Positions 25,968 through 48,738 of a DNA stretch of 51,966 bases are shown piece after piece. Made by a program: the position numbers and the translations under genes. The DNA is taken from the NCBI GenBank assembly GCA_025463165.1, contig JAOBAU010000367.1:1-51966 (forward strand). Direction: 5' to 3'. The notes below the pieces were generated by a model that was not told where the DNA came from, did no database searches, and worked only from the letters and a program-made list of their open reading frames with translations. Source of the DNA: Acidobacteriota bacterium. GTDB taxonomy: Bacteria; Acidobacteriota; Thermoanaerobaculia; Gp7-AA8. Position 1 is the first letter of the stretch. Each line of letters begins with the position of its first letter.

Positions 25968-26780
25968 CTAGTTAACTGCCCGCCAGCCGACATCCGAACG
26001 GCGAAACCATTGCTCTCGCTGCAGCACCTGTCCGGTCCGGCACTCCTCGCGTGCAAACGGCGTCGGTCGGACACGCTTCAACGTGTATTCGACGCGCGCT
26101 TCCGTATGATCACCGTTGTTCTCGATGGCTGTTATCTCACCTAAGTCGAGTTGGCATTCCAGCACGGCGGCGCCGTTCATACCGAAGTTCACCGTCTCGT
26201 TGTGGCCGAGAACGTACTTCTGGCCTTCGGGTGTAAACAGTATCCTGTAGACGAGGTCAGGTCCGGTCGGGCAGGTGGACGAGGGCTGTGCAGGCCACTT
26301 CTCAAGCGTCAACAGCCCCTGTGTCACGTAGTTATCGAACTTCCAGTTTCGCTCGAAGTCGCCGTTGTCGCATGTTGAGTGCGTCCCTTCGATCATGCCG
26401 TACGTCACCGGTCGCGGTAGCTTCTCTTCAATCCGAATGAGACGCTCCGCCTCGCTTCTCGAGAGACCGAGAGTCTCCACCGGAATGGCGGCTTGCTTCG
26501 GGACGTCGATTCGGCCGACGTCAACAGGCGCGGATGCCTGCGCCGGGCTCGTATTTGCGCGTTCAGGCGCACTGCGGGGAGCTGATCGGCCCTCGGCCTC
26601 CGGCCGCGCTGGCTCGCGGCTGCACCCAGCAGTTCCGAGGCAAAGCGCCGTAAGGACGACAACGATTACTCGCGGAGCGCCTTCACGGATTTTGCCGCGT
26701 GACCGGTTCAGAGTGAGTTCATGGAAATGAGGAAAAACGTGAAGATGGCCGCTCGCAAGGAGCAAACGGTCGAATTGCAT
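25968..26780 (-). CDS. Putative lipoprotein of unknown function
   Basis: The frame contains a lipoprotein signal: basic RSRGKIREGAPR, hydrophobic VIVVVLTALCLG, then lipobox TAGC, followed by a Pro/Ala/Arg-rich linker. The folded part (about residues 95-270) has paired Cys (HSTCDNGDFERNWKF, STCPTGPDLVY, LECQLDLGE) and no known motif. The start is uncertain. The ATG at 26780 would add about 38 residues before the signal and overlap the divergent integrase gene by 60 bases; a non-ATG start nearer 26710 is more likely for a lipoprotein. Confidence 0.6.
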   Translation of the reverse strand: MQFDRLLLASGHLHVFPHFHELTLNRSRGKIREGAPRVIVVVLTALCLGTAGCSREPARPEAEGRSAPRSAPERANTSPAQASAPVDVGRIDVPKQAAIPVETLGLSRSEAERLIRIEEKLPRPVTYGMIEGTHSTCDNGDFERNWKFDNYVTQGLLTLEKWPAQPSSTCPTGPDLVYRILFTPEGQKYVLGHNETVNFGMNGAAVLECQLDLGEITAIENNGDHTEARVEYTLKRVRPTPFAREECRTGQVLQREQWFRRSDVGWRAVN

Positions 26781-27377
26781 CTCCTCGAGACGCAGGAAGG
26801 GTCGCCGGTAAAGTTCCTCACTAAAGAGGAAGTCGAACGGTTCTTTGCAGCGATCCCAAAGCGTAACCTTCGGGACCGCCTGCTATTCGATCTCATCTAC
26901 CGCTACGGCCTACGCCGGTCAGAAGCGGGACTTATCGATCGCGCGCGACATCTCACCGGCGATCGCATCTGGATTACCCGTCTGAAGCGAGGACTTTCCG
27001 GCTTTTATCCGATCTCCGGGCGCACGCGAAGGCTCATCTGGCAGTACCTCTCGGAGCTGCAGCAGACCTCGAACACGCACCTTTTCCCCAGTCGCCAGAG
27101 CTCCTCGCAGGGCATCAGCGGCTCGGCGATCTACTACCTCTTCCGCCGCTATGCTCGCGCCGCCGGGCTGGCCGAGGACGCCTGCCACCCGCATACGTTG
27201 CGTCACTCGATAGCGGTTCATTTCCTCGACACCGACGGCCTTGAGCTGCTCGACGTTAAGGACTGGCTGGCGCACCGCCACATCTCCTCGACCATGGTTT
27301 ACGCGCATATCTCCGCCACGCGCCGCAACCGCTCCTACCGCCGTGTACTCAACTCACGGCAGATTGCGAGAACGTAA
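26721..27377 (+). CDS. Tyrosine recombinase (integrase), catalytic domain only
   Basis: These enzymes cut and rejoin DNA at att sites through a phosphotyrosine link. The catalytic set is complete: Arg65 in YGLRRSE, Lys89 in LKRG, His158 and Arg161 in HTLRHS, His185 in LAHRHIS, and Tyr194 in TMVYAH. The N-terminal SAM-like core-binding domain is missing (218 aa against about 300 for XerC/D), as in small integrases of some islands and integron-like elements. ATGs at 26727 and 26745 are alternative starts. It lies 1 kb from the tmRNA-like fragment, a normal position for the enzyme that placed the island. Confidence 0.88.
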   Translation: MEMRKNVKMAARKEQTVELHLLETQEGSPVKFLTKEEVERFFAAIPKRNLRDRLLFDLIYRYGLRRSEAGLIDRARHLTGDRIWITRLKRGLSGFYPISGRTRRLIWQYLSELQQTSNTHLFPSRQSSSQGISGSAIYYLFRRYARAAGLAEDACHPHTLRHSIAVHFLDTDGLELLDVKDWLAHRHISSTMVYAHISATRRNRSYRRVLNSRQIART

Positions 27378-34593: not shown

Positions 34594-37533
34594 ATGACGC
34601 AATCACTTGATGCCAGTCTGGAAAAGCTTAACGAACTAAATGAATGGCGAATCAAGGCCGCGACAATGCGCGACGAAGGGAAAAAGGCCCTTCGTCAGGA
34701 ACTCGCCGGTCAGCAGTTCACAGGGCAAACATCGAGAACCGACCCCAAAGAGTCCAACATATGGCACGAAGAGACGATGCAGTCTCGACATGCTCCGGAC
34801 GGCTCATTGGCACCACGAGGATCGCAGATTCTGGAGGATGCCACTGTCTTGCGTGCCCTGCTTTGCCACCGGCGTCCTGACGCCGGACAAGCGAGCCCAG
34901 CCACAGCTCAGCTTGTCGTCACGCTTGAAAAGAACGAACTCGAAACGCTTTCCGAAAAAGAGGATGACAACCTTCCGATTTTGCGTGCGGCCCGCGTTTT
35001 GATCGCGCTTGCGGCGGCACCCGACTCTGCCCTGTCAACCACTGCCATCTATTGTTATTACATCATAATGCGTGAGCTCTACTCCGGCGACGCGCCGGAC
35101 TGGGTCATCGGCGGTGCTCGCGCCGGCGAAGGACTCGGATCATGCGCATTTGTAACCAATGAGTGCATTCATGCATTGCTTGCATTCGAAAGAACGCTCA
35201 TACACACGGCCGAGCATATAGAGAGCATTCTCGAAATGCTCAAGCGTCGTCGCCCTCCAGAACCGCTAGCGCCGGAGTCACTAGAATTGTTTTCAGAAGT
35301 CAGCGAATGGCTGGAAATCGACGATCGCCGCGCAAGACTTGACCTTGAGATAACCTCTGAGCTACGTAAAGAAAATATTGCCCTCGGGTTGCCGTCGATA
35401 GGCAATGATGGCTTAGCGAACTTTCTCCAGAGCGTTACCGAGAAGGTCCAAGAACAGCTCACCGCCTGTCAGAACCATCTCGGACTCGCGATCAAGAATA
35501 TTGACGAGCACTTCAAGGCCGAAGACAAAAGCTTCACAACAAAGGATCGAGAGACTGAAGAACGCCGCGTGCGCGCAACCGCAGGGCACGGCTTATCCAT
35601 TTGCGTTTTGGAGGCCGCGTTTGACTCAATGAATCGTGCGGTGACACCACTTACTGAGCCAACTGAAGGCGCTAATTCCGATGAGATAGCCCTCAGAGCG
35701 GCATCGTGGTTTTTTCGCAAAATGGTCTTGGATGTTCGGCGTGCGCTTGAACCAGCTTCGGAATATGTATCGCGTGCACTTGATCGCGAACTCACTGCGG
35801 CAGCTTCGGAAACGGCGATCTGGGACGTTGGCGAATTGCTTTTTGCGGCGGTGTCGCATGGCTACTTGAGCGGGAGATGGGACGAGGAGCGCCTGAGAAG
35901 CGCCGCCGCCTACGCCTCTAAGGTTGTCAGCGAGCGGGGTCGATTCCCTATGGGGCAGCCGATTCACCTTTCGCCCCGGGGCTATAACCTCCACGTGCTA
36001 AACGTTGATATTATTCGCGCCCTCGCCGAATTGTTGCATCATACCGAAACTCCTGTTGACCCAAACCTCATGAAGCGACTGATGTACTTCATGGAAGACA
36101 CGCGAACGAACGGCGTGCCCGGCACATGGACACCGAGCGAAGAACTCCGCAGCGGTCTCCCGTGGCGCTCGACTACGGCTAGTACCGTATTAGCGTTAGA
36201 TGCAGTAAATAAAATGCTGGACTCCCGAATTAACGAAGAGATCCTTAGGCACTTCTCGGTTCGCCGCCCAGAGGAGTTAGACGTGCCGGATCTCGCCGAA
36301 TTATTTTACCCTGATTACGGCCTCGCCTCTTCGCAGTGTGACCCTGACCTTCGAAGGAGCGAATCAGTCGCCGTGACCCTCCAACGGATGCGTGCCCATG
36401 TCAGCGGCGTCTTGTTGCGCGCTGAGTATCCGGAGCGCCTTTTTTCTCTCATACTGCATGGCCCGCCGGGCACGGGAAAGACGACCCTCGTGGAGTCATT
36501 GGCCAAGACTTGCGGCGTTCGACTCGTCGAGATCACACCGAGCGATCTTGTTGCCGACGGGGTAGACTCAATCGAACGGACTGCACGTGCTGTGTTTCGA
36601 GCGCTCTCACTGTTGACGCGTGTCGTAATTATCTTCGACGAGTTCGATCCGGTACTTCTGCAGCGACACGACGATCAGAAAGAGGCAACGGCTTTCTCAT
36701 TTCTGACACCCGGCATGCTGCCAAAGCTCAAAACACTTCATTCGTCCGCGTCGCGGCGATCGGTCGCATACGTGCTGAATACAAATCTGATTGGAAAACT
36801 CGATGACGCGGCGATTCGCGGCGGTCGATTTGACGCGAAGGTCGGCATCTACCCGCCCGACCTCCTGTCTCGCGCCGGCCGGCTTGCGTGGGCGGTCGCG
36901 AAGTATGTTCGCGATGCCAAAAGTACCGTTGATCTCATGCCGCGGTTCAAAGAACGCTTCGAGCGGGCCGTTTTGAGCATTCGGCTAGGCCCCATGAACA
37001 CGCTCGCGAAACCGGGATGGTTCAGCGTTCCGCGAGAGATTCTGCCTGAGCAGCTCCGGAAACGTGAAGACGTTTTTAATTATTTGTTCAGCGCGTCGAA
37101 GATGAAGGAGCTCGATGTCGAAGCAGAGCCTCGAGTTTCTTCCGACAAGGCGATTGCGCTCCGAGAGCTGAAGGAACATCTGTACGTCGACTTGTGGGAT
37201 CGCGTCGCGTTCGAAGGCATCCCGCAGGAACTCGATGCGGGTCACACCCAGTACTCCGATCAGACCCTCGCCGAAGCAGTCAGCGGCGTTTCGCAGAGAT
37301 CTGCGAAGGGCGAACCCCTCCTCAGAACGCTCACGCAGGCCCTTGAGAAAAGACCGGAGCACCGGGCAGTAGATGCGAGCGCGTCCGCGTTAATGGCGGG
37401 TGGATCGCGGATAACGCCTGCGTCGTCTCCGAATGGTGGTTCGAGTTCTAGTCCGGTTGGCGAACAAGAGGCGATACCCTCGAAGCCGAATCGCAAATCA
37501 AAGCGAGCACCCGACGTCAACGTCAAAGACTAG
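34594..37533 (+). CDS. Large AAA+ ATPase (979 aa), putative defence or remodelling protein
   Basis: The C-terminal third holds an AAA+ module: Walker A HGPPGTGKTT at about residue 622, Walker B VVIIFDEFDP at about 680, then LNTNLIGKLDDAAIRGGRFDAKVG, with sensor-1 Asn and the arginine finger in the GGRFD segment as in FtsH/VPS4-type ATPases. The first 600 residues have no known catalytic motif. They look mostly alpha-helical, with a possible alpha-toroid (WIGGARAGEGLGSCAFVTNE, GVPGTWTPSEELRSG and STTASTVLALDAVNKMLD). A membrane segment is not apparent. The C-terminal tail is disordered. It lies alone between copy C of the motif and a terminator, next to the TA/Beta cassette, so defence is a reasonable inference. 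Confidence 0.75.
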   Translation: MTQSLDASLEKLNELNEWRIKAATMRDEGKKALRQELAGQQFTGQTSRTDPKESNIWHEETMQSRHAPDGSLAPRGSQILEDATVLRALLCHRRPDAGQASPATAQLVVTLEKNELETLSEKEDDNLPILRAARVLIALAAAPDSALSTTAIYCYYIIMRELYSGDAPDWVIGGARAGEGLGSCAFVTNECIHALLAFERTLIHTAEHIESILEMLKRRRPPEPLAPESLELFSEVSEWLEIDDRRARLDLEITSELRKENIALGLPSIGNDGLANFLQSVTEKVQEQLTACQNHLGLAIKNIDEHFKAEDKSFTTKDRETEERRVRATAGHGLSICVLEAAFDSMNRAVTPLTEPTEGANSDEIALRAASWFFRKMVLDVRRALEPASEYVSRALDRELTAAASETAIWDVGELLFAAVSHGYLSGRWDEERLRSAAAYASKVVSERGRFPMGQPIHLSPRGYNLHVLNVDIIRALAELLHHTETPVDPNLMKRLMYFMEDTRTNGVPGTWTPSEELRSGLPWRSTTASTVLALDAVNKMLDSRINEEILRHFSVRRPEELDVPDLAELFYPDYGLASSQCDPDLRRSESVAVTLQRMRAHVSGVLLRAEYPERLFSLILHGPPGTGKTTLVESLAKTCGVRLVEITPSDLVADGVDSIERTARAVFRALSLLTRVVIIFDEFDPVLLQRHDDQKEATAFSFLTPGMLPKLKTLHSSASRRSVAYVLNTNLIGKLDDAAIRGGRFDAKVGIYPPDLLSRAGRLAWAVAKYVRDAKSTVDLMPRFKERFERAVLSIRLGPMNTLAKPGWFSVPREILPEQLRKREDVFNYLFSASKMKELDVEAEPRVSSDKAIALRELKEHLYVDLWDRVAFEGIPQELDAGHTQYSDQTLAEAVSGVSQRSAKGEPLLRTLTQALEKRPEHRAVDASASALMAGGSRITPASSPNGGSSSSPVGEQEAIPSKPNRKSKRAPDVNVKD

Positions 37534-37894: not shown

Positions 37895-38481
37895 TGTGCC
37901 TGCCTCCTGTGACAAGTCCTTTAATTTCAATTGCTTACGGCCTAGCGTCAGCATAAGTCAACCCTTTCCTCAGTGCAAGTCACAGGCCCGATCCACTGGT
38001 TACTCAACTTCATGACGACGACGGCGGGGAAGTGCTGTAGCTCACGGCACAACCTGCGCGAGAAGCTAATACGCGAACGAGATACGAACGTTGCGGCGCG
38101 CCCGTTTAATGTGCCATTGGCCGGTCGCGCGCGAGTTCGCCGGGAGTTCACAGCCGACGGCGTCGGGACGCCGGAGATTGCACCGTGAGGTGCACGCGGC
38201 AGTCTCATCGAGAGAACTGAGGACAGCTTCGCCGACCGGGCCGAAGAGCAAGCTCCCGCGAGGCCGAGTTCGGGGATCGCGCCGCCGAGACCGTGCACCG
38301 CTGCGATCGTATCAGATGATCGTGCCTTCTTCCATCGCCCCGTTCTACTTCGCCTTTGAAAGATCGCCGGCAGATGGGAGGCCGGGCAAGGCCCAAGGGA
38401 GTCGACACTCGATCTTCCGTTCGGACGTGTGAAACCGGGCGCTTGGCAAGAAACATTCGTGGTCATCTTTCACCGCTACGT
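37895..38481. other. Stretch with no supported gene
   Basis: Open frames here on both strands are low in protein-like content (Arg/Ser/Pro-rich), and the longest (minus, 37948-38466) shows no domain. Only the recurrent motif copy E directly to the right suggests that something on the minus strand was once transcribed. Confidence 0.5.
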
Positions 38482-38511
38482 AGGAGTGCCAGCAAACGAC
38501 TTTTTCCTACC
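38482..38511 (-). promoter_or_regulatory. 30-bp recurrent motif (copy E)
   Basis: On the minus strand GGTAGGAAAAAGTCG, six bases, then TGGCACTCCT; 30 bp. No convincing minus-strand gene follows, so it may be a relic or serve an RNA. It is closest to copy C. Confidence 0.5.
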
Positions 38512-38545
38512 CTCCCTCTCACTTACGTGAGGGCGCAGCACATAC

Positions 38546-38586
38546 TTGACAGCACCGCTACATCGTTTATACTTCCCACTGTGGGA
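38546..38586 (+). promoter_or_regulatory. Promoter and operator of the higB-led operon
   Basis: TTGACA (38546-38551) and TATACT (38568-38573) with a 16-base spacer are near the sigma-70 consensus, rare in this GC-rich DNA. Immediately after lies TCCCACTGTGGGA (38574-38586), a perfect 13-bp palindrome around a central T, placed to block RNA polymerase. Autorepression by the HigA-like domain is the obvious model. Confidence 0.75.
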
Positions 38587-38617
38587 GCAGATTTTACTGT
38601 AGGTATCAGAATACAAC

Positions 38618-38905
38618 ATGACACTCCTAGGAAAAGGACGCTTGTCCGCCTTCAAGAATGCGCACCCCGACGTTAAGCCGCAGGTCGCCGCATGGGAAGC
38701 CGAGGTTGAGAACGCCGACTGGAAAACGCCGATGGACGTCAAAGAGCGGTACCCGAAGGCAAGCTTCCCCGGCAAACAGCAGGTTATCTTCGATTTCGGA
38801 TGGAACAGGTACCGGTTATGGGTAAAGGTCGCCTATAACGCTGGCGTCGTGGTCGTCAAGGAGATTGGGACACACAAAGAATACGACCGATGGCCAATCG
38901 AATAG
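38618..38905 (+). CDS. higB: HigB-like toxin (RelE superfamily mRNA interferase)
   Basis: HigB toxins cut mRNA on the ribosome. The 95-aa product has the HigB pattern: an early SAFKNAHPDVKPQVAAWEAE helix, WKTPMDVKERYPKASFPGKQ, then VIFDFGWNRYRLWVKVAYNA and the closing KEIGTHKEYDRW. It precedes the antitoxin gene, the order typical of hig and the reverse of most TA pairs. Its stop is 8 bases before the chosen antitoxin start. Confidence 0.88.
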   Translation: MTLLGKGRLSAFKNAHPDVKPQVAAWEAEVENADWKTPMDVKERYPKASFPGKQQVIFDFGWNRYRLWVKVAYNAGVVVVKEIGTHKEYDRWPIE

Positions 38906-38913
38906 CCCTTCAA

Positions 38914-40122
38914 ATGACAAACATCAAACTCATCAAATCGAAAGCGGATTACGACGAAGCTCTCAAGCTCATCGAGGAGCTGGTCGATCGCGACCCAGCG
39001 GCGGGTTCTGCCGATGCGGACCGCCTCACGTTACTTACGGCTCTCGTTCGTGACTACGAGGCAAAAGCGTTTCCAGAACATCTTCCTGACCCGATCGAGG
39101 CGATCAAATTTCGCATGGAACAAGCCGGGCTAAAACCCGTGGATCTCGTGCCGTTTATCGGCCCTGCCGGGAGAGTTTCAGAAATCCTTTCAGGGAAACG
39201 ACAGCTCACGCTCGAAATGGTCCGTGCGCTTTCGAGTGGTCTTGGTATTCCAGCGAAGGTTCTTATCCAAAAACCGACGCACGGCACACAGTTTCAGAAC
39301 TGGGATACTGCACTCGTGAAGGTTATGGCGCAGCGCGGTTACTTCGGTGGAAAGACATTAAAGACCGCGACGAAAGCGGATCTGATAGACGGATTTATCG
39401 GTGCATTCGCCGGCCTGCAACCGGCGGCGCTTTATCGCAAAACGGCATTCCGTGTTGCACCGCGTACCGACAAGAACGCGCTTCTCGCGTGGAGGCTGCG
39501 CGTACTGCAGAAAGCTGCTGAGGTCAGCGTCGCTACTAAGTACAGAAAGACCGCGACGCCGGCTCTCCTACAGGAAGTTGTGCGACTCAGCATCGAACCT
39601 CAAGGGCCGCTGCATGCCGTAAGCTACCTCGCGGCGAAAGGAATCAAGCTCGTCATCGAGCCGCACCTACCGAAGACACATCTCGACGGCGCGACCATTC
39701 TCACGGATAAGGAGCATCCAATCATCGGCCTTACGCTGCGTCATGACCGGCCGGACAACTTCTGGTTCACCCTGATCCACGAGCTCGCACACGTTGCACT
39801 TCACTACGAGAGCGGCGTAGAAGCCTTCTACGACGAGGAGCTTCACGCGAGCAACGTGATCGAAATCGATACTGCGGAGCAAGAAGCTGACACGCTCGCG
39901 GAAGAAGCCATCCTCCCGAATAGCAAATGGGAGATCAGCGCCGCGAAATATACACCATCGCCGATGGCCGCGGAAAGCCTCGCGCGGGAACTCGTTATCC
40001 ACCCCTCTGTTATCGCGGGCATGATTCGCTTCAAACACCAGAATTACTACTACTTAAACAAGCTTGTGAACGACGAAAGTCTTCGCGTCCGCAAGTTTTT
40101 CCCTGACCTTTTTGAGAGCTAA
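38914..40122 (+). CDS. HigA-like antitoxin fused to ImmA/IrrE metallopeptidase
   Basis: Residues 1 to about 125 match HigA antitoxins closely (TNIKLIKSKADYDEALKLIE, DPIEAIKFRMEQAGLKP, an HTH with RVSEILSGKRQLTLEMVRAL). The rest is an ImmA/IrrE-type domain with zinc motif HELAH (His289, Glu290, His293) in FWFTLIHELAHVALHYES and the downstream acidic ligand in EQEADTLAEEAILP. ImmA proteases cut phage-type repressors, so the fusion may cleave its own or a partner's repressor under stress. The ATG at 38914 is where HigA homologues begin; an ATG at 38890 is also in frame and overlaps higB. The Beta-family gene starts 1 base after the stop. Confidence 0.88.
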   Translation: MTNIKLIKSKADYDEALKLIEELVDRDPAAGSADADRLTLLTALVRDYEAKAFPEHLPDPIEAIKFRMEQAGLKPVDLVPFIGPAGRVSEILSGKRQLTLEMVRALSSGLGIPAKVLIQKPTHGTQFQNWDTALVKVMAQRGYFGGKTLKTATKADLIDGFIGAFAGLQPAALYRKTAFRVAPRTDKNALLAWRLRVLQKAAEVSVATKYRKTATPALLQEVVRLSIEPQGPLHAVSYLAAKGIKLVIEPHLPKTHLDGATILTDKEHPIIGLTLRHDRPDNFWFTLIHELAHVALHYESGVEAFYDEELHASNVIEIDTAEQEADTLAEEAILPNSKWEISAAKYTPSPMAAESLARELVIHPSVIAGMIRFKHQNYYYLNKLVNDESLRVRKFFPDLFES

Positions 40123-40123
40123 C

Positions 40124-41242
40124 ATGCCGAAATCTATACATTCATACGTCCCCATTTTGCGTTGGCGATCAGCTGAACTGAAGGCTCTACAAATGCTCCA
40201 GCCAAATGAGCGTCAGCGTATTACACCTCTCGTCGAATTCATCATGCCGAGCCCGGCGCTGGACAAGAACCGTCAGATCAAGGAGAGCTCAAGAAACAAG
40301 TTCCTGCGAAAGTTGCCGGAGATGAGTAATGAACTGCTACAGTTCTGCGGCAACGATCCGATCTTTCTCGATGTCCACCTTCTCGACGGGGATATTCGAG
40401 CCAACGCTTTCGACACACTCCTCTCCGCGTCGCGAGCGCTCGACATTTTTTCGATTCCTGTCACTCATATCATTCCCGTGACGAGCACAATTGCCGACGA
40501 CACTACTCGCGGAGTCGCGGCACGCTTCGCCCGAGAAAGCGGTAACGGCCTCTGTATCCGAATCGATCGATCTCACTTCGCTGAACCGAGACTTGCTGAG
40601 CACATTACCGAATTCATCAATGTGAACGATCTCGACATTGCGAACACTGATCTCCTCGTTGACTTGAAGATTGTCGACCAGCACGTTGATCCGAGAGGCA
40701 TCGTGGCTCAGCTCGCGAGATTGCCCGACCTAACGAAGTGGCGATCGTTCATTGTTGCAGGAGGCGCGTTCCCAAAAGATCTAACCCATCTGGGCGTCTT
40801 TGAAACTCATGTCGTCGATCGAGCGGAGTGGCGATTGTGGCGCCTGATTTCTGGCGCCGCGGAGCTACCGCGGAAACCGCTCTTTTCCGACTACACAATA
40901 CAGCACCCCATTTTTTACGGGTACGTCCCCGGCGCAAAAGTCAGTGCTAGCGTCAGATATACAGACGATGATCGCTGGCAAGTGTTTCGCGGTCAGGCGC
41001 TTGGATACATCAACAAGAAAACGGGCGAAAAGGGACCGGGATCAAAGCAGTACGTGGGCCACGCGAAGACGATCGTGGAACAGCCGTTCTATAAGGGTGA
41101 GCGATTCAGCTTCGGCGATGCAGAAATCAAAAGAATCGCTGATGGGCGCGATGGCAAGACTGGCAACCCGGAGAAGTGGTTGTCGATTGGTATCAATCAC
41201 CACCTCACGCTAGTTGCGCATCAGGCCTCCAACTCTCTCTAG
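40124..41242 (+). CDS. Beta-family protein (PF14350-like; sce7725-type)
   Basis: A 372-aa cytoplasmic protein. The opening YVPILRWRSAELKALQMLQP then ITPLVEFI is the recognisable start of the phage-T4 Beta-protein family. SFIVAGGAFPKDL and WRLWRLISG are further conserved blocks, as is HPIFYGYVPG-like sequence near residue 265. The biochemistry is unknown; the fold may be a TIM-barrel-like alpha/beta protein. The ATG at 40124 is 1 base past the antitoxin stop. The gene overlaps the opposing sce7726-like gene by 38 bases at the 3' ends; such pairs recur in genomes. Confidence 0.8.
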   Translation: MPKSIHSYVPILRWRSAELKALQMLQPNERQRITPLVEFIMPSPALDKNRQIKESSRNKFLRKLPEMSNELLQFCGNDPIFLDVHLLDGDIRANAFDTLLSASRALDIFSIPVTHIIPVTSTIADDTTRGVAARFARESGNGLCIRIDRSHFAEPRLAEHITEFINVNDLDIANTDLLVDLKIVDQHVDPRGIVAQLARLPDLTKWRSFIVAGGAFPKDLTHLGVFETHVVDRAEWRLWRLISGAAELPRKPLFSDYTIQHPIFYGYVPGAKVSASVRYTDDDRWQVFRGQALGYINKKTGEKGPGSKQYVGHAKTIVEQPFYKGERFSFGDAEIKRIADGRDGKTGNPEKWLSIGINHHLTLVAHQASNSL

Positions 41243-41810
41243 AGTGTTGCAGCACATGCCACACGCGTTCTTTGAGAGCGTTCACCTCAAACGAATCGAT
41301 GAGTCTCTGGTATATGGCATCGCGAGGTTTTGAACGGACCCCGGCGGCGCTTCCTGCTTCCTCGAGGAGGTCCAGCGCTTCATTTCTCCACAAAAGACGG
41401 ACGATGGAGGTTAGATCTTGATGCGGATTGTCGTGCCCCTCACGGATCTTATTGAAAATCACAATGCCGTCAGCGGCAACTCCGACTGTCTCGATACCCC
41501 ACCATTCGGGGATGGCTTGAAACGCTTGGACAAGGTGTGTCCTACCGACGACAAGGGTTACTTTGTCGAAGACCGAGTTATACGCGCGCATTTGCGTGTC
41601 CAAACGGCCCAAAGTATCTCGGTCGCTCTTGATTTCGAAGCCATGCGCGATGCCGTTCACCACCGCGACATCAATGCGAACCGTCCCGTGCCAGAGCCCG
41701 AGCTCCGGAACAATTCGATACTTCGTGATGGGATATTCACACGCTAAACGATCGAGCAGGGCTCTCCTAACAAGCGCATCGGTCGTTTGAAAGGGAGAAG
41801 TGATCGACAT
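41205..41810 (-). CDS. sce7726 family protein, putative PD-(D/E)xK nuclease
   Basis: A 201-aa protein fitting the sce7726 family: an N-terminal DALVRRALLDRLACEYP helix, VPELGLWHGTVRIDVAVVNG, GFEIKSDRDTLGRLDTQMRA and the WWGIETVG segment. Glu36, Asp47 and Glu59-x-Lys61 line up as a PD-(D/E)xK nuclease core. It faces the Beta-family gene tail to tail. In genomes with such pairs both are usually encoded in one operon; here they are convergent. Confidence 0.85.
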   Translation of the reverse strand: MSITSPFQTTDALVRRALLDRLACEYPITKYRIVPELGLWHGTVRIDVAVVNGIAHGFEIKSDRDTLGRLDTQMRAYNSVFDKVTLVVGRTHLVQAFQAIPEWWGIETVGVAADGIVIFNKIREGHDNPHQDLTSIVRLLWRNEALDLLEEAGSAAGVRSKPRDAIYQRLIDSFEVNALKERVWHVLQHSRESWRPDAQLA

Positions 41811-41832
41811 GGACTAGGTGGTTTGGGACCGA

Positions 41833-42250
41833 TTAATCATACCGCATCGGCCAGCATTGAGCGATCACTTGCGTTCCTCCTGCCGGAGTACACTCGACTC
41901 CGCGTGTGTATTCTTCCCAAGGCTCATGAACGTCTTTGCAAGAGAGAATAGTGAAGCTTGAGGAAGTCCGGCCGACCGATGACCCTGCCTCCCGCACCCA
42001 GACAGTTGGGCAAGTCATCGTCTGGCATCGGTAGTAGACCCGGCCCTTCGCCTCAGATCCCACGAGGCACTTTCCGCACGTCACGCACCGCAGCATCCGG
42101 CCGTACGTGAAGCGGTGATGCAGCCTCCTCGGTGCAATCCTCACCCGCAACCGGCTCCTGCACCCGGAAGAAGAGTTCCTTCGTGACAAGCGGCTGGTGC
42201 AGCCTTGATGGCGTCCTCAGCAATTACTCCCACCGTTTGCGGAGCACCTC
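41833..42250 (-). pseudogene. Remnant of a large serine recombinase (C-terminal zinc-ribbon part)
   Basis: The frame at 41833-42189 includes FTYGRMLRCVTCGKCLVG then YYRCQTMTCPTVWVRE, closely matching the zinc ribbon of the intact enzyme at 43387. Upstream in another frame lies HQPLVTKELFFRVQE, matching HEPIIRMKTFRRVQE there, and a TGA stop cuts the frame before it. At least one frameshift and one nonsense change are thus present. It may be the tail of the truncated resolvase at 42896. Confidence 0.7.
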
Positions 42251-42895: not shown

Positions 42896-43327
42896 TTACG
42901 TCACTAACCGCTTTGGCGTCGCTTCTGTTGACGTTGCGTCCGCTGCAAGTCTTCCGCTCCGGGAGGTCATATCGATCCCTTCGCCAGCGAAGTGGACCGG
43001 AATGCCAGAGTCGAGTAGCTCGCCAAGCTCCGCCCAGTCCTTCAGGTTCCGGGCGGAGCGGTCTATCTTGTGGACGATGAGACCATCTGCCTTGTGGCCA
43101 CAGAGGAGCCGGAGCACATGGCCGAAGACGGCCCGGCCGCGTTTCGCGGCGGTTTCTTTCTCTTCGAACCACTCGCTCACGCGGAGCCGGTGGGCAGCAG
43201 CATAGCGGGCGATGCCTTCCCGCTGGGTTAAGAGGGAGACGCCTTCGCCTTGCTTTGGGGTCGAGACGCGGACGTATGCGAGGTACCGACCTTTGGGTTG
43301 ATGTTGAGGTGAAGGGATGTTGGTCAT
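42896..43327 (-). pseudogene. Truncated serine recombinase (resolvase domain)
   Basis: The 143-aa product is the N-terminal catalytic domain of a large serine recombinase: catalytic Ser in LAYVRVSTPKQGEGVSL, then FEEKETAAKRGRAVFGHVLR and GLIVHKIDRSARNLKDWAEL, ending at GRLAADATSTEATPKRLV. It parallels the intact enzyme up to GRLSAD, after which homology stops. The recombinase body and zinc ribbon are missing here; a decayed zinc ribbon lies 700 bases downstream. A small active resolvase cannot be excluded because the catalytic residues are intact. Confidence 0.75.
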
Positions 43328-43386: not shown

Positions 43387-44967
43387 TCAGGCGGCGAGGT
43401 CTTTGTTCTCCTCGGCGAGCAGGCGTTCAATGCGGATCATCTCACCGGGATGCTGCTCTGCCCACTTGAGGAGTGCGGGGACACATGATGGTTCGAGGTT
43501 CTGGAAAGTTCGAGTTTGCCCGGTTTGAAGTGCACCTAGGTCAGATTTCTGCACGCTCGACAGGAAGCGAAACGGTTCAGCCACCGCAATCTCTACATTC
43601 TTGCCGCTCACGGTGCGGTTGGAGGTGAGTATTTCCACGAGCCGTCGTCTGTCTGAAGGACTCCCCGATTCATAAAGCGTTTCCGGGCTCTTCGCAAGTT
43701 GGAGGCATCTCAGCGCGAAGTCCAATGTTCGGGCCTGATCGCCGTCAAGATGTGCAAGTGAGTCGCCGACCGCATTCCGTTCCATCACAAGCGCGTTGCG
43801 TCGCTCGTCATAGGCATCCTTGTCGATACGGGCGTCGACGTAGACGTCGGTGAGACGCCCAAGTCGGGATGTAAGGGAGCCTAACTGAGTTTGGAGCTGG
43901 ACCCTGCTCGCCTCTCTTGTTTCAACGGCGTTCGACGAGACTTTCTCGATCTCGGCACGCAGCCTAGCGAAATGCTTTTCCGGAAGGGTAATACGCAGCA
44001 ATGTCTTGCTGACGGCATCGTCGAGCAGATCCTCGCGCACGCACGTGGTTGGACACGCCGTCATCTGGCAGCGGTAGTAGACGTGGCCTTTAGCGAGCGA
44101 GCCGATGAGCGACCGGCCGCAACTCACGCATGAGAAGAGTCGCCGATAGCGGAAATCGTGTTGCTGCGTGCGGCGCGGCTTCTTGCCGTCGAGCACTTCC
44201 TGCACGCGACGGAAGGTTTTCATGCGAATGATCGGCTCATGGATCGCCGGGAAAAGCTCGCCTGTTTTCCGTAGGCGGATCACGCCAGCGTAGAACGGAT
44301 TTCGGAGCATGGTCACGAGGCCGGTGAGGCTGAGGGGCTTGCCTTTCCGGTTTCGCAAGCCTTTCGTTGTCACTTCATCAAGAAGAGGGAGAAGACTTGC
44401 GGTTCCGCTCGCGTACCGTTCGAAGGCGTGACGTACCAGCGGGCCGTTCCGAGGATCGATGGTCTTCACCTTCCCGCCCCGACCGTGGTCGAGGTATCCG
44501 ACCGGCGCGCCCAACGGATAAATACCCTCCTTCAGGCGGCCATCAAATCCTTTGCGAGCTTCCTGACGGTTGTTGCGGATGAAGTCTGCGGCGACGACAG
44601 CGAGAATGTCCGCGGAAAGCCTGCCGCCGCGGGAGCGCAGATCGAGCGGCTCATGCGCGAAATGAATATCGAATCCGGCGTCAATGAGTTCGCCGAGATC
44701 AGCCCAGTCGCCAAGGTTCCTCGCGCTGCGGTCGATCTTGTGAATGACGATTCCGTCGGCTTTGCCCTGACGGAGTGCTTTGAGCATGGCGGCAAAGAGA
44801 GGTCGGCCGCGTTTTGCCGCGGTGACGTGCTCTTCGTACCAACCGACGATCTTGAAGCCTTGCTTTGCCGCGTATGTCTTAATTGCGGACCGCTGCTCCT
44901 TAAGTGAGACGCCCTTTTCCGCCTGTTTGGTGGTGGATACACGAATGTACCCAAATACACGTTTCAT
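43387..44967 (-). CDS. Large serine recombinase (site-specific integrase)
   Basis: A 526-aa large serine recombinase. The resolvase domain has catalytic Ser11 in FGYIRVSTTKQ and the arginine cluster KIDRSARNLGDW. The recombinase domain spans about 145-275 (KGLRNRKGKPLSLTGLVTML, RNPFYAGVIRLRKTGELFPA). A zinc ribbon follows with CVSCGRSLIG and YYRCQMTACPTTC, then a long coiled coil (about 330-410, SSNAVETREASRVQLQTQL). Such enzymes insert and excise mobile elements. The start codon overlaps the stop of a small gene (ATGA), so the two are coupled. It sits at the left edge of the replication/mobilisation module. Confidence 0.93.
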   Translation of the reverse strand: MKRVFGYIRVSTTKQAEKGVSLKEQRSAIKTYAAKQGFKIVGWYEEHVTAAKRGRPLFAAMLKALRQGKADGIVIHKIDRSARNLGDWADLGELIDAGFDIHFAHEPLDLRSRGGRLSADILAVVAADFIRNNRQEARKGFDGRLKEGIYPLGAPVGYLDHGRGGKVKTIDPRNGPLVRHAFERYASGTASLLPLLDEVTTKGLRNRKGKPLSLTGLVTMLRNPFYAGVIRLRKTGELFPAIHEPIIRMKTFRRVQEVLDGKKPRRTQQHDFRYRRLFSCVSCGRSLIGSLAKGHVYYRCQMTACPTTCVREDLLDDAVSKTLLRITLPEKHFARLRAEIEKVSSNAVETREASRVQLQTQLGSLTSRLGRLTDVYVDARIDKDAYDERRNALVMERNAVGDSLAHLDGDQARTLDFALRCLQLAKSPETLYESGSPSDRRRLVEILTSNRTVSGKNVEIAVAEPFRFLSSVQKSDLGALQTGQTRTFQNLEPSCVPALLKWAEQHPGEMIRIERLLAEENKDLAA

Positions 44968-45256: not shown

Positions 45257-46225
45257 ATGATTCATCCAAACCTGCGACGAGAGGTCGCCGAGCGGTACCA
45301 CCGCTCCCTGCCGGCGGACATCCGGCGTTATCTAAACGGTCGAGGCATTGCAAACGAAACCATCGACCGCTATCTCCTTGGCTGGACCGGGCGGCGCATC
45401 GCGATTCCCATCTTCGGCCGCGGCGGCGAAGTCATCTCCTTCCGGTACGGCCGGAGTCCGCACGACCAATCCGACAGTCCGAAGATGCTCTCGGAGATCG
45501 GCGCGTGTCCGGAGCTCTATGGCGTAGAGGCGCTTGAACGAGCGCCAAAAACCGTCGTCATCTGCGAGGGCGAATACGATCGGCTTGTTCTTGAGTCCCA
45601 CGGCATACCGGCCGTCACATCGACCGCCGGTGCGGGCGTCTTCCTCGCGGAGTGGGTGCCGCACTTCGATCGCGTGAAGCAAATCTTCATCTGCTTTGAC
45701 CGCGACGAGGCGGGCGATCTCGGCGCGCGGCGCGTGAAGGCGCTTCTGCCGCACGCCGTGATCGTGCAATTGCCAGAGGACGTCGGCCGCCATGGCGACG
45801 TGACCGACTTTTTCGCGACGCTTGCAAAGACGCGCGTCGATTTTGAACTACTGCTGGCTGCAGCGGCTGCCAAACCGGAAGAGGAAAACCGCCCGCCGAA
45901 GGTCTCGCCCGCGAGAGGCTGGAGCAAAGCGATGCGGCGCCGTCGCGAGAACCTGCGCCGGGAGGTGCCCATCGCGCGCGTCCTCGCGAACTATCTCGAT
46001 CTGCGGGCCTCCGGCGGGCAGCTTGTCGCACGATGTCCCTTCCACGAGGACACGACGCCCTCCTTCACCGTCTATCCGGCAACGAATACCTACTACTGCT
46101 TCGGCTGTCACAAAGACGGCGATGCAGTCTCCTTCCTCATAGAAAAAGAGTCGATGAATCTCCCGGAGGCGCTCAAAGCCGTTGAGCGCTTCCGCGACAC
46201 CAATGAACTCTTCGGCGTCGCCTGA
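45257..46225 (+). CDS. Primase-like protein with reversed TOPRIM and CHC2 domains
   Basis: DNA primases make RNA primers. Here the order is unusual. The N-terminal half is a TOPRIM-type catalytic core, with Glu104 in VVICEGEYDRLVLES and Asp148-Arg-Asp150 in IFICFDRDEAGDLGAR. The C-terminal 80 residues are a CHC2 zinc finger, C260-x2-H263-x17-C281-x2-C284 (VARCPFHEDTTPSF then YYCFGCHKDGDAVSF), with the same spacing as in DnaG. In DnaG and phage primases the zinc finger is first. The gene is 322 aa and divergent from the recombinase pair, with 110 bases between. The D5-like gene starts before its stop. Confidence 0.88.
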   Translation: MIHPNLRREVAERYHRSLPADIRRYLNGRGIANETIDRYLLGWTGRRIAIPIFGRGGEVISFRYGRSPHDQSDSPKMLSEIGACPELYGVEALERAPKTVVICEGEYDRLVLESHGIPAVTSTAGAGVFLAEWVPHFDRVKQIFICFDRDEAGDLGARRVKALLPHAVIVQLPEDVGRHGDVTDFFATLAKTRVDFELLLAAAAAKPEEENRPPKVSPARGWSKAMRRRRENLRREVPIARVLANYLDLRASGGQLVARCPFHEDTTPSFTVYPATNTYYCFGCHKDGDAVSFLIEKESMNLPEALKAVERFRDTNELFGVA

Positions 46226-47553: not shown

Positions 47554-48738
47554 ATGCGCCCCTTGACGTACCTCGGCCGCACCGATTGGCGCGGCCGCGC
47601 GCGGCCGTTCGGCATTCGCGCGGAAGACCGCGGCGCGCATCTCTACATCGTCGGCAAGACCGGCGTCGGCAAGTCCTCGCTTCTTGAGCTCATGATCCGG
47701 CAGGATCTTCTCTCCGACGCCGGGCTCGCGCTGTTCGATCCGCACGGCGATCTCGCCGAGCGCGTCGTCGCGTGGCTGCCGTCGTGGCGCAGGTCCGACC
47801 TCATCTATCTCGACGTGCCGAATCCCGCGCAGCCCTTCGGATTCAATCCGCTGCAGCACGTGCCGCTCCTTCGGCGCTCCGTCACGGCAAACGGCATTGT
47901 GGAGGCCTTCAAAAAGATTTTCAGCGAGTCTTGGGGGCCTCGATTGGAATGGATATTTCGAAGCGCGCTGCTCCTCCTCCTCGACCAACCCTCCGCCACG
48001 ATCGCGGACGTGCTGCGGCTCTTCCATGAGCCGGAGTTCCGGATCGAAGCGGCGGCGAAGGCCACGAACGAGCATGTGCAGCGCTTCTGGACGACAGACT
48101 TCGAGCGATACGGCCGCTTGAAAGTGGAGGCCATCGGCCCGATCGAGAACAAGTTGGGTGCCTTCCTCATCGATCCCTTCGTCTCGCGCATCCTCACGGC
48201 GCGCGAAAGCTCATTCGAACCGCGCGAAGTCATGGATCGCGGCGGCGTGCTCGTCGTGAATCTCGCGAAGGGAAAGATCGGCGAAGCGCCGGCGATGCTC
48301 TTCGGCAGCCTCCTCGTTTCCGCGCTTGCGATGGCGGGACTCGCGCGCGCGGACACGAACGCCGCATTCCGGCGCGACTTCGTGATCTACATGGACGAGT
48401 TCCAGACTTTCACGACGCTCGCGCTCGCGACGATGATGGCGGAGCTGCGCAAATACAAATTGCCGTTGGTGCTCGCGAACCAACACCTCGAACAGCTCTC
48501 GCCGGAGGTTCGGAGCGCAATCCTCGGCAATGTGGGCACCCTCGTCGTCTTCCGCATCGGCGCGGCGGACGCGATGCGCATCGCGAAGGAGCTTGGCCCA
48601 AACGTGGAGCCCGACGACCTCACGTTTCTTGAGAACCGCAACTTCTGGATTCGCCCGCTCGTGGGCGGCAAAGTATGGCCGCCGTTTACCGGCAAAACGA
48701 TCCACGTCGATGAGAAGAAGAATGCGGAAGCGCGATAA
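47554..48738 (+). CDS. VirD4/TraD-like or HerA-like ATPase (DNA transfer)
   Basis: A 394-aa ATPase of the FtsK-HerA type: Walker A in YIVGKTGVGKSSLLE at about residue 32-46, GLALFDPHGDLAERVV, Walker B in FVIYMDEFQTFTTL, and LVLANQHLEQLSPEVRSAIL with the sensor Gln/Asn. Its short length and lack of N-terminal membrane helices are unlike a full coupling protein; it resembles the cytoplasmic ATPases listed as type IV DNA-transfer proteins. Such proteins bring DNA to a transfer pore or pump it. It starts 2 bases after the ATPase gene. No relaxase or T4SS gene is in the window. Confidence 0.82.
   Translation: MRPLTYLGRTDWRGRARPFGIRAEDRGAHLYIVGKTGVGKSSLLELMIRQDLLSDAGLALFDPHGDLAERVVAWLPSWRRSDLIYLDVPNPAQPFGFNPLQHVPLLRRSVTANGIVEAFKKIFSESWGPRLEWIFRSALLLLLDQPSATIADVLRLFHEPEFRIEAAAKATNEHVQRFWTTDFERYGRLKVEAIGPIENKLGAFLIDPFVSRILTARESSFEPREVMDRGGVLVVNLAKGKIGEAPAMLFGSLLVSALAMAGLARADTNAAFRRDFVIYMDEFQTFTTLALATMMAELRKYKLPLVLANQHLEQLSPEVRSAILGNVGTLVVFRIGAADAMRIAKELGPNVEPDDLTFLENRNFWIRPLVGGKVWPPFTGKTIHVDEKKNAEAR

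Follow-up and report, generated by a model that had tools for sequence, protein, structure and literature searches.

This report concerns a four-gene locus in a 51,966-nucleotide stretch of DNA from an Acidobacteriota bacterium (assembly GCA_025463165.1, contig JAOBAU010000367.1). The whole stretch is called the window, and coordinates are window positions unless a locus name stands before them. In order, the locus encodes a HigB-like protein (A), a fusion of a HigA-like helix-turn-helix (HTH) domain to an ImmA/IrrE (M78) zinc peptidase (B), a Beta protein (C), and a protein of the sce7726 family (S) that is convergent with C (written C><S). Judged by family assignment, the locus is a variant of the defence system PD-lambda-2, a system type already known, that additionally carries the nuclease-like partner of Beta known from phage P4.

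Genes, signatures and operator

The open frames and families named in the original prediction were all found in place, and C and S face each other with overlapping 3' ends as it had described (Table 1). In Pfam, A matches PF09907 HigB at 2e-22, B matches PF06114 M78 at 1.2e-6, and C matches PF14350 Beta at 1.2e-59. The N-terminal, HigA-type part of the B profile is matched by HigA chains of known structure (3e-12), and S matches the NCBIfam model NF033832 sce7726 (E 4.1e-42; 144 bits, above the curated cut-off of 70 bits). The PADLOC models assign A to PD-Lambda-2_A (PDLC03981, 2e-34), B to PD-Lambda-2_B (PDLC03982, 3.5e-129), C to PD-Lambda-2_C (PDLC03983, 2.4e-45), and S to 'cll', i.e. the P4 cII family. 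Most homologues of B use the ATG equivalent to 38914, and C starts one base after B within one operon.

Table 1. Features of the defence locus and of its surroundings in the window
Feature	Position	Strand	Description
Promoter of the A-B-C operon	38546..38573	+	sigma70-like, TTGACA-16-TATACT, 11/12 match
Operator	38573..38587	+	TTCCCACTGTGGGAG; consensus TTCCC-N5-GGGAA, 15 bp; touches the -10 box
Gene A	38618..38905	+	HigB-type RelE-fold mRNA interferase family, PD-Lambda-2_A; motifs NRYRL and GTHKEYD intact
Gene B	38914..40122 (alternative start 38890)	+	HigA-like HTH fused to ImmA/IrrE (M78) zinc peptidase, PD-Lambda-2_B
Gene C	40124..41242	+	Beta protein, PD-Lambda-2_C / P4 beta relative; TIM-barrel-like predicted fold
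Overlap of C and S 3' ends	41205..41242	.	38 bp
Gene S	41205..41810	-	sce7726 family, P4 cII relative; PD-(D/E)xK signature D47, E59xK61
AAA ATPase-domain protein	34594-37533	+	979 aa; AAA ATPase domain at the C-terminus, no family match for the long N-terminal part; lies a short way upstream of the defence locus
Tyrosine integrase	26721-27374		
Second large serine recombinase, remnants	41833-42189 and 42896-43327	-	59% and 55% identity to stretches of the intact neighbour
Large serine recombinase, intact	43387-44967	-	
DnaG-like primase/Toprim	45257-46225		
Coupling-protein-like gene, type IV secretion system	47554-48738		

The residues to which the original prediction had pointed, the HELAH motif of B and Asp47 and Lys61 of S, are invariant in our alignments. 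In B, HELAH (H297-H301, of the HExxH type) is accompanied by an invariant E330. The S alignments show no change at E36, R45, D47, E59, K61, or S62, either in 25 sequences, P4 cII included, or in an overlapping set of 28. The AlphaFold2 model of S has a predicted local distance difference test (pLDDT) score of 91. Its best match among solved structures is 3dnx (E 3e-4, probability 1.00) at a weak template-modelling (TM) score of 0.38; tRNA splicing endonucleases follow and are not significant. Signature and model agree with a PD-(D/E)xK-type nuclease, short of proof. Sequence searches of Beta against solved structures returned nothing credible. Its model (pLDDT 94, predicted TM score 0.93) alternates strand and helix, and the fold search returned mostly TIM-barrel proteins at low TM scores, a hint only. 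An enzymatic role for Beta may be inferred from these fold matches together with D180 and D256, which are invariant in both alignments.

The consensus-like promoter proposed earlier was recovered as the sole promoter-like site in 38400-41950, and since shuffled sequences give 1.8 such sites on average, this count is not significant on its own. The 13-bp palindrome reported with it, TCCCACTGTGGGA at 38574-38586, is real and lies inside an operator whose consensus spans 15 bp. With two or fewer mismatches allowed, 44 of the 48 full-length AB loci have TTCCC-N5-GGGAA ahead of A, compared with 10.5% of 210-base stretches drawn at random from the same loci; the palindrome is not a product of chance. 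Shorter HigBA loci often carry the related GTCCC-N5-GGGAC. The conserved operator upstream of A supports a predicted autorepression by the HigA part of B. In the source genome, TTCCC-N5-GGGAR is found at nine more places (contigs C21, C24, C70, C73, C92, C101, C178, C310, and C432), and the reversed operator pattern at 1-2 per strand.

Relation to tested systems and toxin polarity

PD-lambda-2 was selected from E. coli and acts by abortive infection (Vassallo et al. 2022, PMC9519451). In that system B alone is toxic and A rescues, a result called 'unexpected', and C is not needed for neutralisation but is needed for defence against lambda-vir (PMC9519451). The window has the same order of a HigB-like A, a HigA-ImmA B, and a P4-beta-like C in one operon, all matching the PADLOC models. 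It differs in its extra convergent sce7726 gene, as PD-lambda-2 is defined by three genes, in the separate clade of its B, and in an intact HigB signature, which is lost in the three loci with the best scores on those models (L027, L236, and L237). A second relative, gop-beta-cII of P4, protects against lambda and P1, and its gop is toxic when beta is missing (Rousset et al. 2022, PMC9122126). Both loci have Beta with a convergent sce7726/cII gene and a toxin-type gene upstream in line with Beta. In the window, however, HigB and HigA-ImmA replace gop, neither A nor B matches a gop model, and B is the gene directly upstream; the window Beta and P4 beta share about 24% identity, and the P4 3' ends do not overlap.

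Two further comparisons concern the AB part. Type II toxin-antitoxin systems of the higBA kind (E. coli ygjNM, 5ifg) likewise have the toxin first, the HigB signature, a HigA HTH, and a promoter palindrome, whereas the window antitoxin has a C-terminal zinc peptidase and is followed by two more genes. Fusions of COG2856 (ImmA/IrrE) and Xre beside RelE toxins (Makarova et al. 2009, PMC2701414) resemble the window in combining an Xre-peptidase fusion with a RelE-family toxin in an operon; unlike here, Beta and sce7726 are not mentioned in that paper's passages on these fusions.

The statement in the original prediction that the Beta/sce7726 pair has no proven function is outdated, because PD-lambda-2 and P4 gop-beta-cII are tested defence systems. 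Our literature search for the pair as such returned incidental mentions only, and the papers searched give no biochemical activity for Beta or sce7726/cII. The proposal of a candidate defence system has fared better: an anti-phage role is the best reading and is well supported. The locus probably works by abortive infection, as a mobile anti-phage module that combines a HigB/HigA-ImmA toxin-antitoxin pair with a complete Beta><sce7726 pair.

The assignment of toxin to HigB and antitoxin to HigA is uncertain: in the tested PD-lambda-2 the roles are reversed. HigB of E. coli acts as an mRNA interferase that depends on translation (PMC2814082). Two motifs, N-x-[YF]-R-[LI] and T-H-x-x-Y, are both present in the A proteins of 8/8 A-B-C-S loci; T-H-x-x-Y occurs in 32 of 35 AB-only loci and is shared by a HigB of known structure to which the window A can be aligned. 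Both motifs are absent from all three canonical-type loci, a term used here for the loci scoring 610-617 bits on PDLC03982 and not for the E. coli locus tested by Vassallo et al. A search of E. coli genomes for canonical PD-lambda-2 with the DNA of L083 and L237 gave no match. Loss of the signature in the canonical-type group may explain the published inverted polarity, with B toxic and A the antidote, as far as motif conservation in three loci can indicate. In the window, where the signature is intact, either A or B may be the toxic partner.

The Beta and sce7726 pair and the spread of the layout

Beta and sce7726 form a near-obligate convergent pair. Among 396 genomes of the phylum, Beta was found in seven and sce7726 in 11, and the two are adjacent and convergent in six; with the source genome left out, their overlap has P = 2e-8. 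The seventh Beta genome, G105, has A-B-C (locus L129) and no sce7726 match. In IMG/VR, a convergent Beta accompanies sce7726 at 77 of 80 loci, and two of the exceptions end at a contig edge. Of 71 non-redundant pairs, 70 have overlapping 3' ends (median 47 bp), P4 with its 27-bp gap being the exception; across these 71 pairs, pairwise distances in Beta are correlated with those in sce7726 (r 0.82; 0/2000 permutations). In P4, gop (247-648+), beta (651-1718+), and cII (1746-2540-) give Beta and sce7726 the order and orientation seen in the window; on the PADLOC 'cll' model P4 cII scores 376 bits, and on the sce7726 model, which has a cut-off of 70, it scores 151 bits. Convergent pairs also occur in an E. 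coli Rac prophage and on Rhodococcus, Agrobacterium, and Sinorhizobium plasmids. These pair counts are no frequencies in nature, because the viral loci were chosen by sce7726 similarity and prophages were sampled unevenly.

Some sce7726 genes have other neighbours. At L135 3633-5518 and L136 6138-7974, sce7726 stands in tandem with sce7725 (NF033831), and at L174 5004-6810 a viral sce7726 without Beta is followed by protein kinase-like and phosphatase-like genes, as judged by eye. The idea that sce7725 is a distant Beta was rejected, as the profile comparison covers 36 N-terminal residues only and is not significant.

A scan of GTDB genomes with B found 37 relatives matched across nearly the whole protein. 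The order A>B>C><S recurs in eight other loci, namely those of the seven closest B relatives (53-66% identity) and L011, so the four families co-occur beyond this genome, as the original prediction required. These loci lie in Patescibacteria, Omnitrophota, and other phyla; L003 begins at a contig edge, with B, C, and S only visible. The B tree places the window beside rows from Parcubacteria, Levybacteria, and Magasanikbacteria (100/99). The set around it comprises nine A-B-C-S loci together with L010 (a short stretch of C only), L129 (without S), and L019 (without C); the A-B-C-S clade that holds the window has 100/100 for its eight rows. The three canonical-type loci, which are the best matches to the canonical PD-lambda-2 models, form a separate clade (100/97), and the window B falls outside this clade of top PADLOC-scoring loci.

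An alternative is that two independent neighbours are seen, a stand-alone Beta><sce7726 defence pair with a HigB/HigA-ImmA module upstream by chance. This is rather unlikely in our view, although 49 non-redundant Beta loci are listed without an adjacent B relative, all with sce7726, AB without Beta is common, and the AB-linked Beta proteins fall into two separate supported clades; the starred branches of the Beta tree do not force two origins. On the other side, the A-B-C-S clade keeps its four genes linked across several phyla, the pairwise distances of B and C correlate (r 0.90), C lies a single base behind B in one operon, and the C gene is needed for defence in PD-lambda-2.

Several observations weigh against a joined abortive-infection module. 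Most full-length AB loci lack Beta. A B relative lies directly upstream of Beta in 20 non-redundant pairs, nine of which have the full-length B of the A-B-C-S type, and most of the other pairs have no coupled gene upstream. In the phylum sample, again without this genome, the overlap of full-length B and Beta is not significant (P 0.06). The AB and Beta/S modules can work apart, because most pairs are without AB and most full-length AB loci without Beta, and S is dispensable in some relatives, because the canonical-type L237 and also L129 have ABC without sce7726. The window B and C are 39% and 27% identical to a canonical-type locus, and in its fold S resembles solved proteins only weakly, as described above.

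Full-length AB is also found in other company. L016, L018, L022, and L023 carry it without Beta, followed by genes whose starts resemble type I restriction subunits (by eye), and on plasmid NZ_CP098525 (L310) it lies, again without Beta, downstream of annotated restriction genes. AB may also have a guarding or regulatory role for further defence systems.

Proposed mechanism, mobile setting and meaning

Beyond the gene identities, intact signatures, conserved operator, gene order, and co-inheritance of Beta and S, we infer a mechanism for the joined module as follows. B, alone or with A, would bind TTCCC-N5-GGGAA over the -10 region and repress the operon, and in the uninfected cell A, as a HigB mRNA interferase, would be restrained by the HigA part of B. 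Beta may perceive infection or its consequence, and would need, or be controlled by, its nuclease-like partner S. On activation, the M78 peptidase of B would cut B or a partner, freeing the toxin and lifting repression, and the freed toxin would halt translation before phage release; S may also cut nucleic acid. Beta and sce7726 would thus be the sensing and nuclease core, and HigB/HigA-ImmA a plug-in toxin module.

The operator over the -10 region also suits a different role for AB, that of a LexA/ImmR-like switch, in which the HTH-peptidase, a repressor of its own operon, is inactivated on a signal and Beta is induced and attacks incoming DNA with the nuclease, with no toxin-driven death. 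A precedent exists in ICEBs1, where ImmR is inactivated by proteolysis requiring ImmA, and the passages on such fusions in PMC2701414 propose the LexA analogy. We regard a switch as quite improbable, given that the HigB signature is kept in 8/8 loci, that S lies on the opposite strand outside the control of this promoter, and that PD-lambda-2 works by abortive infection.

The region from 26.7 to 48.7 kb contains a tyrosine integrase, a DnaG-like primase, and a coupling-protein-like gene, as well as one intact large serine recombinase and the remains of another, and the guanine-cytosine content is 0.53-0.57 at 34-42 kb vs about 0.58-0.64 elsewhere. The locus looks like cargo of an integrated mobile element. 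A search of 17 other genomes of the same family found no full-length relative, which suggests horizontal transfer. The source assembly is fragmented (471 contigs, 4.2% contamination), and the contig may be mis-binned. The AAA ATPase-domain protein was considered as a member of the system and set aside, as IetA-type models match its AAA domain only. The integrase, primase, coupling-protein-like, and recombinase genes around the locus, and the fact that HigA relatives are common on plasmids, would also fit a plain addiction module that stabilises a mobile element, with Beta and S as passengers. This is very improbable, since Beta is tightly conserved with S and defence has been shown for relatives.

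For the joined anti-phage module, a broader history can be offered tentatively, as one that is possible but somewhat doubtful. Beta><sce7726 would be an ancient two-gene defence core able to stand on its own, with Beta a TIM-barrel-like sensor or enzyme and sce7726 a nuclease, into which toxin modules were plugged repeatedly: gop in P4, HigB/HigA-ImmA here and separately in canonical PD-lambda-2, and shorter modules of the HTH-peptidase kind in phages and on rhizobial plasmids. HigB of the canonical line would have lost its active site and become an antidote, and sce7726 would have been lost there, while the present locus would keep the older state with an active HigB. If this is true, the inverted toxicity of PD-lambda-2 is explained.

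This analysis adds a four-gene variant, a near-obligate pairing of Beta with sce7726 that P4 shares, an operator, and a contrast in the HigB signature. PD-lambda-2 and P4 gop-beta-cII, which were named separately, are tied to one conserved core, and a testable reason is offered for the antidote behaviour of the HigB-like protein of PD-lambda-2. The findings also suggest that some lineages of PD-lambda-2, in the form described, may lack a fourth component that they once had.

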